From assembly GCF_000223905.1 (NCBI RefSeq), contig NC_015948.1, forward strand, positions 2,294,001 through 2,358,000: 64,000 nucleotides of DNA, read 5' to 3'. The position numbers were made by a program, and so were the translations under genes. How positions within the stretch are numbered: the first letter of the stretch is position 1; each line of letters begins with the position of its first letter. The notes under the pieces were generated by a model that saw only the letters and a program-made list of their open reading frames with translations, made no database searches and was not told the DNA's origin. The DNA is from Haloarcula hispanica ATCC 33960. Its GTDB lineage: Archaea; Halobacteriota; Halobacteria; Halobacteriales; Haloarculaceae. Positions 2,830-48,617 of the stretch are shown here, piece after piece.

Positions 2830-3627
2830 ATGAGTAAACGCGTCCTCGGGGTGGATTTCAGCGGCGCAGCGACCGCTGGCGACGCGCTCTGGGTCACCGA
2901 GGCGATCCCGACGGAAGACGGGCTGACGATTCAACGGTGCTACCGCGGGACGGACGAATGGGGCCGGGACCGTGAAGCGGCTCACGCTGGCCTTTTCGAT
3001 CGCATCACCGACGATGATGTGGGCGCTGTCGGGCTGGATTTCCCGTTCAGTCTGCCACAGGCGCTGCTTGACGCGCAGTGCGGGGGGACCTGGGACGGCT
3101 TCGTCGACTGGCTTGCGAGCGGTAGCGGCCCGACTGACCCGGGGTCACTCTCAGAGGCGTGCCGGCACACCGCGGAGATGGCGACCGGCAACCGGGACCT
3201 GCGCCGGGAGACGGATTTCCGCCGCGGGGCGCTGTGTCCCTACACGAATCGGACGCGCAGTATGACCTTCTACGGCGTCCGGGACGTACTCGGAAAACTG
3301 CGAGACGACGACGCGACAGCCGTCGTGCCGATGCAGGGCTGGGATGCCGACACGCTGGTCGCGGAGGTGTACCCCGCGGCGACGTTCGGCTGGCTGGGCT
3401 GCTACCGCGAGGGGTACAAGAACGTCGATGACCCCCGGCAGCGCCGAGAGGCAAACGTCGCAGCGGTCGAAGCCTGTAGCGTTACGGTCGGCGATCACCG
3501 CGACACCTACCTCGGGAACCACGACGCGCTGGACTCGCTGGCCGCCGTGGTTTCGGCGGGCCGGCTGGCCGACGGTGCCGGACCGCCCGTCTCGGGTCCC
3601 GACAGTGAAGGCTGTATCTACGTTTGA
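2830..3627 (+). CDS. DUF429 family protein (RNase H-like fold)
   Basis: 265 residues starting MSKRVLGVDFSGAATAGDAL. The opening G-[VI]-D-[FW]-S-G-A is the family hallmark of DUF429, predicted to be an RNase H-like nuclease domain, with further acidic positions in GLDFPFSLP and VYPAATF. No function is established. The frame is open upstream to 2659, overlapping the divergent zinc-protein gene; the ATG at 2830 is preferred because homology to the family begins there. Confidence 0.82.
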   Translation: MSKRVLGVDFSGAATAGDALWVTEAIPTEDGLTIQRCYRGTDEWGRDREAAHAGLFDRITDDDVGAVGLDFPFSLPQALLDAQCGGTWDGFVDWLASGSGPTDPGSLSEACRHTAEMATGNRDLRRETDFRRGALCPYTNRTRSMTFYGVRDVLGKLRDDDATAVVPMQGWDADTLVAEVYPAATFGWLGCYREGYKNVDDPRQRREANVAAVEACSVTVGDHRDTYLGNHDALDSLAAVVSAGRLADGAGPPVSGPDSEGCIYV

Positions 3628-45522: not shown

Positions 45523-45901
45523 ATCCAGTGCCAGGGCCGGCGGACTCAAAACGCCTACCCCGAACCGTTCGCATGACGGCGGCATCGCTTCTTCGCCGTC
45601 GCTATCGTCGTCAATGGTATGATGAACGGGAGTGATTGGCGGCGGGACCTATCCGGGCCGAGCGTCATCACAAAAGTGCTGATACAGACGATGTGAGATG
45701 GGTTCTCGTACTCTCCAGACACCATCCGCTGGGCGGACCGATAGTTCCGGTGTGGTCCACAGCAAAGGACCTGAAATGGGGCGTCCTTGGGGCGAGACGC
45801 CCACGGGACAGACACGAAAAACTCGTGGCGCGCGGCGACGGGCTATGCCCACGGTGGTCGTCGCCGCGAAAGATGGTCGAGACTGACAGGTCAATACCCG
45901 G

Positions 45902-46018
45902 TCACGTCCTGACTCTCACCTCCTGTAGGGCGGCGTTTGCGCGGACGACAGGGACGGCAGTACCCGACTCGCTACGGCGACAGATATCCCGTCTCGATGT
46001 GGCCTGTTCGTCCGGCAT
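45902..46018 (-). pseudogene. 38-codon ORF or decayed Tat-substrate gene behind a DtxR-type box
   Basis: The ORF starts MPDEQATSRRDICRRSESG. MPDEQATSRRD looks like the n-region of a haloarchaeal twin-arginine signal, but no hydrophobic core follows in frame; the +1 frame is more hydrophobic. This suggests the 5' remnant of a frameshifted, deleted exported protein. Alternatively it is a genuine micro-protein. Its promoter closely resembles that of the halocyanin gene: GGCATACA before a TTTAGG/CCTAAA palindrome 7 nt from the ATG, with an AT-rich TATA region at about 46042-46051. Confidence 0.35.
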
Positions 46019-46025
46019 ACAATTG

Positions 46026-46041
46026 TTTAGGCTACCCTAAA
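46026..46041 (-). promoter_or_regulatory. DtxR/IdeR-type palindrome before the 38-codon ORF
   Basis: TTTAGGCTACCCTAAA has perfect 6-nt arms (TTTAGG/CCTAAA), matching the half-sites of DtxR-family metal-regulator boxes (TTAGG...CCTAA). It lies between the TATA-like stretch and the ATG at 46018, where a bound repressor would block initiation. Confidence 0.5.
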
Positions 46042-46089
46042 ATACAAAAAGCCATCGGTTTCTAGGCGGGCCAAAAAGTAGAGCGTCGA

Positions 46090-48558
46090 TTACTCCTCGA
46101 CGATGACGGTGCCAACCATCCCCGCGGCTTCGTGCGGAATACAGACGTAGCCGTGCTCGCCAGCCGTCTCGAACGTGTGAACGTAACTCTGGCCGGACTG
46201 CACTGCCCCTTCCCCGTTCTCCCATCCCTTGCGTGCGGCCGACTCGCTCTCGAATCCGCCGGAGGCCCAGTAGGTCGCGTCCGACGGGATTTCGTCCGCC
46301 ACAGCGGTGACCGAGTGCGGTTCGCCGCCGACGTGTTCCCAGGCGACTTTATCGCCGACGCTGACAGTGAGTTCTTCCGGCGCATACGCCACTGCTTCCA
46401 TGTCGACGACGTGGTCGGCGTCGTCGGGAACGCCCTCAACGACGTTCGGGCCGCCGGACAGCGACGTCTCAGTCTCTTCGGACTCCTCGCTACCGTGGCC
46501 TCCGGACCCGCTCGGGGCGCTGTCGACAGCGCCGACGACAGCGAACTGCGCGGTTCGCGTCGCATCTGCAAGCACTGTCGGGTCCCCGTCGCCGTTCGTA
46601 AGCCCTTGCGAGTAGTCGCTCAACGCAGCCTCGAAGTTCTCGTAGGCGTCGTGGTCCGCTTCCTCCAGCATCTCGTGAACCCGTGCTTCCTCGAACGTCG
46701 CGAAGACGTCCTGCACGATGGCCGTCGCGGCCTCACCGTTGCCGCCGGCGCTCCCGGCGATGGCGTACGCCGCCGCGATGGCCTCGTCGTTGAACGCTGT
46801 CGCCGCGCTGGTGACATCCCCACCGTCCTGAGCGGCGGCACGAACGTCGGAAAGCGTCGATTCGAAGCTCTCGTAGATTTCCCCGTCGGCTTCTTCCAGC
46901 GCCTCGTGGAAGCCCGCCGCGCCGCTCTCGAAGTGGGCGAAGGTATCCTGGATGACGGTCGCCGCGCGGTCGGTTTCCGACAGCGCCGCGAGGCCGGCCG
47001 CGTCGAAGGCCCGCCCGATCATGTAGTCCGCCTCCGCTCCGCTGGCGACAGCCGTCGACAGGGCCGCTTCGAAGTCAAGCAAGGCCTGCTGGACCCCGTC
47101 GTGATGGGTCGCCACGGCTTCGCTGTCGTCGTTCTCGTAGGCCGACTGGAGTGCCACGAGGTGTTCCTCTTCGAAGCGATGGTAGAGGTCCTCGCTCTCG
47201 TGCTCCATCGTCTCGTGGAAGCCGAGTTCGTTCTCCTCGAAGCGGGCGAACACGTCTGAGACGATAGTCGCCGCGCTGTCGGCGTCGCCGAGGCGATACA
47301 GTTCGCGAGCGTCCGCAATGCGCGCACGGAAGAAGGCGGACTCCAGCGCCGCCCGGGCGTCCTCGCCGCCGACCAGCGCTTCGATACCAGTCACGAGGTT
47401 CGTATCGACCGTTTCGACGGCGCTGTCGATGCCGTCCGCGCTCCCGTTCTCGATGGCACTGGAAAGGTCCTCCAGTCCGCCCTCGAAGGCTTCGTAGGCC
47501 TCGCCATCGGCCTCCTCCAGCGCGTCGTGCGCGTTCGCTCCCTCGAAGTGAGCGAAGACGTTCTCGACGGCCGTCGACGCTGCATCGGCCGCGTCGTTGG
47601 CGGCGAGCCAGTCCGCATCGGCAATCCGGGCACGGTAGCTGCTCAGCGTGACCGTGTGCGCGTACGCCTGCCCGGGACCGCCGGCGGACGCGAGTGCGGC
47701 CGCGTCCCAGCCGCGGGCCTGCATCGTCGCGAGGTGACCTGCACCAGCGACCGCCTCTTGCTGGACCAGCGCATACGCACCTGTGACAGTCGCATCGAGC
47801 GCGGCGCGGGCCTGTTCGGTGACACCGCTCGCGTCTTCACTGCCCGCGGCGGAACCGATGCCAGCCAGTGCGTTCTCGAAGGCTTCGTAGGACTCCGCGT
47901 CCGCAGTCTCTATTTTGCTGTACACCAGCGCATCCTCGAACGCGGTCATCGTCTCCTCCGCGATGGTAGCGGCCGCTTCGAAAGCGCCCAGCGTCCCGGC
48001 CATGGCGGCATTGCTCGCCCGACTACCCAGCACGAGCAGGTCCAGCACTCTGGTGGCCTGCTGTCCGGCAGCGGCCTGCTGCGCTGTCTGGAGGTGGCCC
48101 GACGCTTTGTCTGCGGCCGAGGCGGCTCCGGACACGTCGCCCTCGGACAGCGACGACTGGACGGACCCGAGCGCGTCCTCGAACCCCTCGTATGCCGACT
48201 CGGACGTGGCTTCTAGCTGTTCGTGGGCTCCGTACTCGCCCGACGCCCCCTCGAAGCGGGCGAAAACGCTCTGGGCGACAGTCGCCCCGGCACCGGGTGC
48301 GCCGGCCCGGCCCAGCGCGACGGCGTCGTACAGCCGCGCCCGGTAGACGTTCCACTCAGTCGCGACAGCGGTCATCGGCCCGACCGAGACGCCGCTTTCG
48401 TCCCCCTCGTCGGTTTCCGCACCCGTTACCTGTTCTGTCGCTGCTTCGGTATCAGCTGACGCCGTGTTCGGTTCGGACGACCCCTGGCTTGGACAGCCAG
48501 CAAGGAGTCCCGTCGCAGCGATCCCCACCGTCTTCAGCAAGTCGCGTCTCTGTGGCAT
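46090..48558 (-). CDS. Tat lipoprotein with six His/Glu-rich repeats and C-terminal halocyanin domain (DUF5059 type)
   Basis: 822 residues. The N-terminus is a Tat lipoprotein signal (QRRDLLKTVGIAATGLLAGC). The next about 650 residues contain six related helical units, each with VF[AT]xFE followed by H-E-x-[LM]-E and [YA]Y[EH]xFE (for example FAHFESGAAGFHEALEEADG). The last about 100 residues are a blue-copper halocyanin domain with ligands in GGEPHSVTAV and YVCIPHEAAGM (His, Cys, His, Met). It should sit on the outer face of the membrane and move electrons or metals. Two DtxR-type boxes upstream suggest iron or manganese control. Confidence 0.85.
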   Translation of the reverse strand: MPQRRDLLKTVGIAATGLLAGCPSQGSSEPNTASADTEAATEQVTGAETDEGDESGVSVGPMTAVATEWNVYRARLYDAVALGRAGAPGAGATVAQSVFARFEGASGEYGAHEQLEATSESAYEGFEDALGSVQSSLSEGDVSGAASAADKASGHLQTAQQAAAGQQATRVLDLLVLGSRASNAAMAGTLGAFEAAATIAEETMTAFEDALVYSKIETADAESYEAFENALAGIGSAAGSEDASGVTEQARAALDATVTGAYALVQQEAVAGAGHLATMQARGWDAAALASAGGPGQAYAHTVTLSSYRARIADADWLAANDAADAASTAVENVFAHFEGANAHDALEEADGEAYEAFEGGLEDLSSAIENGSADGIDSAVETVDTNLVTGIEALVGGEDARAALESAFFRARIADARELYRLGDADSAATIVSDVFARFEENELGFHETMEHESEDLYHRFEEEHLVALQSAYENDDSEAVATHHDGVQQALLDFEAALSTAVASGAEADYMIGRAFDAAGLAALSETDRAATVIQDTFAHFESGAAGFHEALEEADGEIYESFESTLSDVRAAAQDGGDVTSAATAFNDEAIAAAYAIAGSAGGNGEAATAIVQDVFATFEEARVHEMLEEADHDAYENFEAALSDYSQGLTNGDGDPTVLADATRTAQFAVVGAVDSAPSGSGGHGSEESEETETSLSGGPNVVEGVPDDADHVVDMEAVAYAPEELTVSVGDKVAWEHVGGEPHSVTAVADEIPSDATYWASGGFESESAARKGWENGEGAVQSGQSYVHTFETAGEHGYVCIPHEAAGMVGTVIVEE

Positions 48559-48566
48559 ACAGTCGA

Positions 48567-48580
48567 TTAGGCAGGCCTAA
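48567..48580 (-). promoter_or_regulatory. DtxR-type operator of the halocyanin-repeat gene, proximal box
   Basis: TTAGGCAGGCCTAA is a perfect palindrome apart from the central AG. It is 8 nt upstream of the ATG at 48558, overlapping the expected transcription start. DtxR/IdeR-family repressors recognise TTAGG...CCTAA half-sites. Confidence 0.6.
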
Positions 48581-48603
48581 AAGACTTAACAGCACCGGTT
48601 TTT

Positions 48604-48617
48604 CGGCGAGCCTAAAT
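48604..48617 (-). promoter_or_regulatory. DtxR-type operator, distal box
   Basis: TTCGGCGAGCCTAA matches the pattern TTAGGC-NN-GCCTAA with one mismatch and lies 37 nt centre-to-centre from the proximal box, upstream of the likely TATA region. Confidence 0.45.

Follow-up and report, generated by a model that had tools for sequence, protein, structure and literature searches.

Described systems and the place of this locus

EfeO and EfeM are extracytoplasmic proteins that combine a cupredoxin with helical bundles whose metal sites use His, Glu, Tyr and Asp, as the relevant passages of PMC9174327 describe. The FtrB/P19-type systems, in the excerpts available on them, likewise place a copper domain in an iron-uptake setting. 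At the level of RNA, RyhB is an iron-sparing small RNA. The haloarchaeal locus described here encodes a predicted lipoprotein that resembles EfeO and EfeM in its extracytoplasmic setting and in the union of a cupredoxin with helical bundles, but differs from EfeO in having no M75 match, in comprising six bundles rather than two and in carrying its copper domain at the C-terminus. M75/imelysin (PF09375) gave no match in the protein at E up to 1 and none in the genome, and the FTR1 permease (PF03239) gave 0 matches in the genome while four control genomes were positive; the genome thus lacks the partners usual for a cupredoxin iron system, which sets the locus apart from EfeUOB/Ftr systems, with their M75 and FTR1 components, and from FtrB/P19-type systems, with their Ftr1 permease. 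By analogy, the protein would work like bacterial EfeO without being its relative.

Within the haloarchaea the PF16502 (DUF5059) family, to which the protein belongs by a full-length match above the curated cut-off, includes the hcpE-hcpG-like halocyanins HVO_1228 and HFX_RS06015. In the passages available from the literature, HVO_1228 (as 'DUF5059 domain') is up by 4.2 log2 in a CRISPRi strain targeting endA, where it ranks in the top ten of the up-regulated genes alongside siderophore/iuc genes (PMC7714728); under the name hcpE it stands at -2.92 log2 in a table that also contains iucA and further iron genes, where cas1 itself is at -7.63 (PMC9051519). The Hfx. mediterranei homologue HFX_RS06015 is given DUF5059 and blue-copper domains and the UniProt label hcpG (PMC9240420), while another source applies hcpG to HVO_2150 instead (PMC8305020), and on the evidence of these excerpts the hcp names are unstable for the family. 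HVO_1228 has no occurrence in the available main text of a paper on the Hfx. volcanii iron-starvation proteome (PMC11349517), and the open-access passages that name either DUF5059 or HVO_1228 give no function for them. The original prediction held that the role of the domain is not described; this agrees with the passages searched, although Pfam already lists the domain as DUF5059, so that the family is known and its function unexplained. The literature passages on the family describe neither its repeat units and invariant sites nor its control by boxes or the insertion of a three-unit block.

The lipoprotein gene and its copper domain

The window is a stretch of 64,000 nucleotides from Haloarcula hispanica ATCC 33960 (contig NC_015948.1, positions 2,294,001 to 2,358,000), and all coordinates below count from its first letter. 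The predicted lipoprotein gene is real: an open reading frame encoding 822 residues occupies 46090..48558 on the reverse strand and begins with a Tat-type/lipobox signal (residues 1-22, 48493..48558, reverse strand; MPQRRDLLKTVGIAATGLLAGC) in which R4, R5, A20, G21 and the lipobox Cys22 are invariant in 28 of 28. Residues 64-682 match PF16502 with 909.3 bits across profile positions 1-619 of 619 (cut-off 25 bits), and residues 718-821 match Copper-bind (PF00127) with 56.4 bits (cut-off 21.2). Of 293 Halobacteriales genomes, 70 carry DUF5059 above the cut-off and 71 have it at E up to 0.001. Two DUF5059 matches are broken into two frames (G118:C3:234210-236077 and G086:C38:7174-8960), possibly by frameshifts or as decaying copies.

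The type-1 copper (cupredoxin) domain spans about residues 704-822 (46093..46449, reverse strand), as delimited by Pfam, structure match and alignment, and its ligands H748, C806, H809 and M814 are present in all 54 long homologues; in the short members of the family introduced below, the methionine position is a methionine in only two of six. The domain superposes on plastocyanin 2plt with Z 14.8 and an rmsd of 1.1 over 91 aligned residues. NCBIfam rates this part as plastocyanin/halocyanin-like, below curated cut-offs, and for the halocyanin subfamily TIGR03102 the score is 35.3 bits under a curated cut-off of 93.8. The copper part was initially called a halocyanin; it is a blue-copper domain, but it falls outside that narrow subfamily.

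Six related helical units

The region between signal and copper domain consists of six related units of about 100 residues whose starts are recognisable in the sequence. On the reverse strand they comprise unit 1 (residues 61-165, 48064..48378) and unit 2 (residues 166-265, 47764..48063), both from profiles, alignment and model; unit 3 (residues 296-396, 47371..47673), unit 4 (residues 397-499, 47062..47370) and unit 5 (residues 500-605, 46744..47061), from model and alignment; and helices B-D of unit 6 (about residues 606-681, 46516..46743), from alignment, model and the short family members. Single-unit profiles built from other species each locate the full set of six units in the window protein, the weakest with an i-E of 2.9e-7, while among 200 shuffles per profile 7 to 13 gave an i-E below 0.01, the best 1.6e-4. 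Some profiles give a seventh weak match at about 266-308 (i-E 0.0009-0.009), inside the shuffle range. Four weak matches of the unit outside DUF5059, among 294 genomes of the phylum, were rejected as chance; from their sequences we take them to be a DnaK, a HEAT-repeat protein, a GNAT-like protein and an arginyl-tRNA synthetase.

A short DUF5059 form of about 500 residues occurs in six genomes (G145, G220, G140, G009, G276 and G288; loci L067-L072). As these proteins match only profile positions of about 1-236 and 541-619, retaining units 1, 2 and 6, units 3-5 look like one block inserted into, or lost from, a three-unit protein, and the first helix of unit 6 is probably formed by residues 268-291.

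The original prediction of metal-binding-type helical bundles called for a structure prediction, and the models bear out the bundles. Units 3-5 modelled alone with AlphaFold form three confident four-helix bundles, one per unit (pLDDT 96.9, pTM 0.94), and a full-length AlphaFold2 model from 28 sequences has confident helical and copper parts, with an overall pLDDT of 84.7 and a low pTM of 0.51. Against the PDB, the matches listed for the full model concern the cupredoxin part only, and Foldseek searches with the three-unit model came back empty at E up to 0.001, both for the PDB and for viral models. VIA-align of the same model returned a designed helical protein (Z 13.7), PsbQ (up to 13.0), catenin/vinculin and cytochrome c', a level of Z common for generic helical bundles, and fold relatives of the units are accordingly not claimed; M75/imelysin is absent among the VIA-align rows listed, which neither include nor exclude the M75 fold. 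Unit profiles run against PDB sequences gave two designed proteins, with EccA3, methionyl-tRNA ligase and cytochrome b562 at E above 0.1.

Invariant residues and putative metal sites

Between residues 61 and 682, 65 of 622 positions are identical across 54 distinct long homologues, among them 17 Glu, 11 Phe, 8 His, 7 Ala, 6 Leu, 6 Tyr, 4 Arg, 3 Asp and 3 Gly. Many of these fall into a recurrent row of Glu, His, Glu (+4), Tyr (+11) and Glu (+15), which is complete in 54 of 54 homologues in unit 1 (E103-H112-E116-Y123-E127), unit 3 (E339-H344-E348-Y355-E359), unit 4 (E441-H448-E452-Y459-E463) and unit 5 (E544-H551-E555-Y562-E566); in unit 6, E632 is kept in 53 of 54 and the remaining positions in all. 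Unit 2 is degenerate, with Tyr213 in place of His: the long homologues have His in 23 cases and Tyr in 23 of 54, and the short forms have His in six of six. The six units originally predicted are all there, but the assertion that each of them carries the motifs is slightly wrong because unit 2 has lost its His here, and the element at the heart of the conserved row in the other five is H-x3-E, not HExxE. On an ideal helix, the angular spread of the His, Glu, Tyr and Glu of one unit stays within 60 degrees. Such rows suggest buried or ligand residues, and the invariance makes metal binding by the helical units plausible.

Ferritin-like di-iron proteins have two ExxH motifs and two Glu in one four-helix bundle. 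Compared with this arrangement the window protein has, as read from its sequence alone, ExxH in unit 4 only and in one copy (E463-x2-H466), accompanied by H485; both His residues are invariant additions to the row of that unit.

The same residues could in principle serve packing. In a structural or docking protein the Glu, His, Tyr and Arg would be there for packing and for salt bridges in a halophilic helical repeat, with no metal in the units, and the conserved Arg and Asp of helix A (R73, R75, D314, D416) could indeed pair with Glu; that no natural metal protein stands out in the PDB sequence search fits this as well. What weighs against it is that His is the most selectively conserved residue of the region, with 8 of 16 invariant as compared with 17 of 65 Glu, 7 of 146 Ala, 3 of 47 Asp and 0 of 44 Ser. 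Salt bridges alone rarely fix His, and we consider a purely structural role decidedly unlikely.

Paired metal boxes and the iron regulon

Upstream of the gene stand two metal boxes, located by box search: a proximal box TTAGGCAGGCCTAA with 0 mismatches (48567..48580) and, 35 bp further upstream, a distal box TTCGGCGAGCCTAA with 1 mismatch (48602..48615). Both had been predicted as DtxR-type boxes, one perfect and one with a single mismatch, and both are conserved; two further box-like sites downstream of the gene, treated below, had been missed. With start codons chosen by a lipobox rule and position windows fixed after inspecting the data, the proximal TTAGGN4CCTAA (at most 1 mismatch) precedes the start codon at -23 to -16 in 59 of the 60 distinct homologues and the distal box at -58 to -49 in 50, both occurring together in 49 with a spacing of 34-37 bp; the sample comprised 78 loci (L009-L086), 77 of them with a DUF5059 ORF, reduced to 60 distinct proteins by dropping identical ones. 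Shuffled upstream regions contained the proximal box in 0 of 12000 cases. The six short forms have the proximal box in six cases and the distal one in a single case.

In the Haloarcula hispanica genome the perfect box occurs 23 times, as against once for a reversed control pattern. Ten proteins encoded beside other boxes were scanned (several further box sites have no clear gene or fall outside the scan), and these comprise four siderophore-type binding proteins of the Peripla_BP_2 family, one IucA_IucC/FhuF protein, one Fe_dep_repress protein, a class-III aminotransferase that NCBIfam assigns as diaminobutyrate transaminase, a member of another solute-binding family, a glutamine synthetase and a pyridine-nucleotide oxidoreductase. 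The pattern is that of a haloarchaeal DtxR/Idr-type regulon, a conserved operator common to iron and siderophore genes. A DtxR-type regulator gene (L193 2753-3298, forward strand; G000:C2 near 270218) begins beside a perfect box, which suggests that this regulator is autoregulated. Iron control of the lipoprotein gene is well supported by the conserved box pair, by its sharing with the siderophore genes of the genome and by the co-variation of HVO_1228 in the published passages cited above, and the metal control that had been predicted is upheld on the same grounds.

Across 293 genomes, and with one below-cut-off genome removed from each list, DUF5059 and IucA_IucC occur together in 34, DUF5059 only in 36, IucA_IucC only in 54 and neither in 169, an association with an odds ratio of 3.0 (Fisher p 1.7e-4, without kinship correction). 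Since 36 of the 70 DUF5059 carriers are without IucA_IucC, the protein is more than an accessory to this route of siderophore production. A survey of the homologue loci, in which many ORF calls are spurious high-GC frames, found no recurrent neighbour gene (operon partner) beyond near kin.

A proposed function in surface iron capture

We favour, tentatively and at somewhat less than an even chance, an extracellular iron-starvation protein that captures or oxidises iron with copper redox help, in an EfeO-like manner. When iron is plentiful a DtxR-family repressor of the Idr type would keep the gene off, and when it is scarce the protein would be made. Five units would each bind a metal ion, most likely iron, through the Glu-His-Glu(-Tyr-Glu) row, with unit 4, given its extra ExxH pair and His, as the most promising site of a ferroxidase-like centre with two metals. 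The copper domain may then exchange electrons with the bound iron, bringing it to the right oxidation state for capture at the membrane, and the captured iron would be handed on to an iron/siderophore uptake system.

The iron boxes and the copper ligands invariant in the long forms would also suit an iron-sparing electron carrier, that is, an extra copper carrier replacing iron-containing ones, with the helical units acting as its spacer or as an arm that docks onto respiratory complexes. A spacer, however, needs no identical Glu/His/Tyr rows in five units, and other cupredoxin-like regions in the genome match the copper domain, which also counts against this explanation; we think it unlikely. 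The repeated Glu/His sites might alternatively belong to a general surface buffer or store for Mn, Zn or Cu, in which the copper domain would be one more site without redox chemistry; the look-alikes of the units include PsbQ, one entry of which contains Zn, a type of helical-bundle match that is often generic at such Z. Yet the boxes match those of siderophore genes, pointing to iron, and a pure store needs no invariant type-1 copper site; we hold a general store to be improbable.

A candidate RNA under its own box

Downstream of the protein gene lies a putative second promoter with a perfect box TTAGGCTACCCTAA (46027..46040, box search) and, at the same 35 bp spacing, a distal partner with 2 mismatches (46062..46075, read by eye), which has a one-mismatch form in L027, L043 and L017. 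A perfect box stands at the matching place after the stop codon in every Haloarcula locus listed. The stretch that follows (45750..46026, reverse strand), delimited by conservation and folding, is a candidate iron-controlled RNA that appears to be under the same switch as the protein. Past the box, 12 other Haloarcula genomes are 87-96% identical to the window over 334-381 nt, G227 is 74% identical, and variation climbs sharply after about 45750. The stretch folds better than most of its shuffles (z -2.58; 4 of 200 equally good), and no tRNA was found in it. As a candidate it resembles RyhB and IsrR, the latter as far as the available passages go, in following an iron-type repressor box and in its compact stems; it differs from them in its archaeal host, in its unrelated sequence and in matching no Rfam family at E up to 1.

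Its structured core (45802..45889, reverse strand; covariance model R1 and pair counts) consists of a long stem with a ACCGTGGGCA loop, followed by a CACGA hairpin and TCTGTCCC. A model trained without L031 and L044 recovers both (33.5 bits, E 6.8e-7), and over 293 genomes it gives matches in 18. The exact core pattern is present in 17 of the 293 genomes with no control matches; these are 16 of the 18 genus members listed (own genome included) and G269. In the pair counts 96.4% of cells are paired, compared with at most 58% in slid versions, and two pairs have compensatory changes, a number that 4 of 500 shuffles reach. The support for the structure is moderate, since the sequences had been aligned with that structure in view, most of the pairs are invariant and an outer one is broken in 8 of 12.

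A match in G267 (28.7 bits) lies at a locus without a box and was taken as chance. The distant haloarchaeon G269 has a match of 29.1 bits (L156, G269:C1:813500-820500, positions 3219-3255, reverse strand) with no metal box (L137), in which one stem pair is changed from G-C to A-U; the gene just upstream of this stem-loop presumably encodes a superoxide dismutase. G269 also has a DUF5059-like match that is short, lies below the cut-off and contains a stop.

The RNA and the protein gene part company in one Haloarcula genome. G244 has no DUF5059 match but retains the RNA core (near 3602-3706 of L155, G244:C1:1042000-1050000) behind a box pair of 35 bp spacing, one box perfect and the other with a single mismatch; by our own reading the locus is syntenic, with neighbouring genes as in the window. 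As the candidate RNA persists with its boxes in the same neighbourhood without the protein gene, it would be the more durable part of the locus.

Within the RNA an open frame of 38 codons (45902..46018, reverse strand; codon comparison) starts with an ATG 8 nt past the box. With L014 and L031 excluded, its codon differences are 26 synonymous and 32 not, as against 10/49 and 17/42 in the other frames, a difference that mildly favours coding among close Haloarcula; by eye, the predicted small protein has no similarity in the divergent L031 and G244. The reverse complement of a conserved 13-nt tail of the RNA has no perfect genomic match beyond itself, and with at most 1 mismatch it has 8 sites (one of them itself) against 4 in the control, nothing among them being clear as a target.

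Implications for haloarchaeal iron biology

The candidate RNA is the most novel part of the locus, the protein family being known but unexplained. Taken together, the locus might be a two-product iron-starvation module, in which a multi-bundle iron-capture/oxidation lipoprotein with a copper relay is joined, immediately behind it, by an independently controlled regulatory RNA with its own DtxR-type box pair, an archaeal counterpart of RyhB and IsrR; we hold this to be possible, if on balance doubtful. The literature searched holds no report of an archaeal iron-sparing regulatory RNA, and if the RNA is real, archaea would have one. The permease-linked cupredoxin iron systems compared here depend on FTR1, and in a genome without FTR1 the locus offers a candidate for iron capture at the cell surface. 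Both parts occur in genetically tractable hosts: Haloferax volcanii carries the protein, and Haloarcula hispanica carries the protein together with the candidate RNA.
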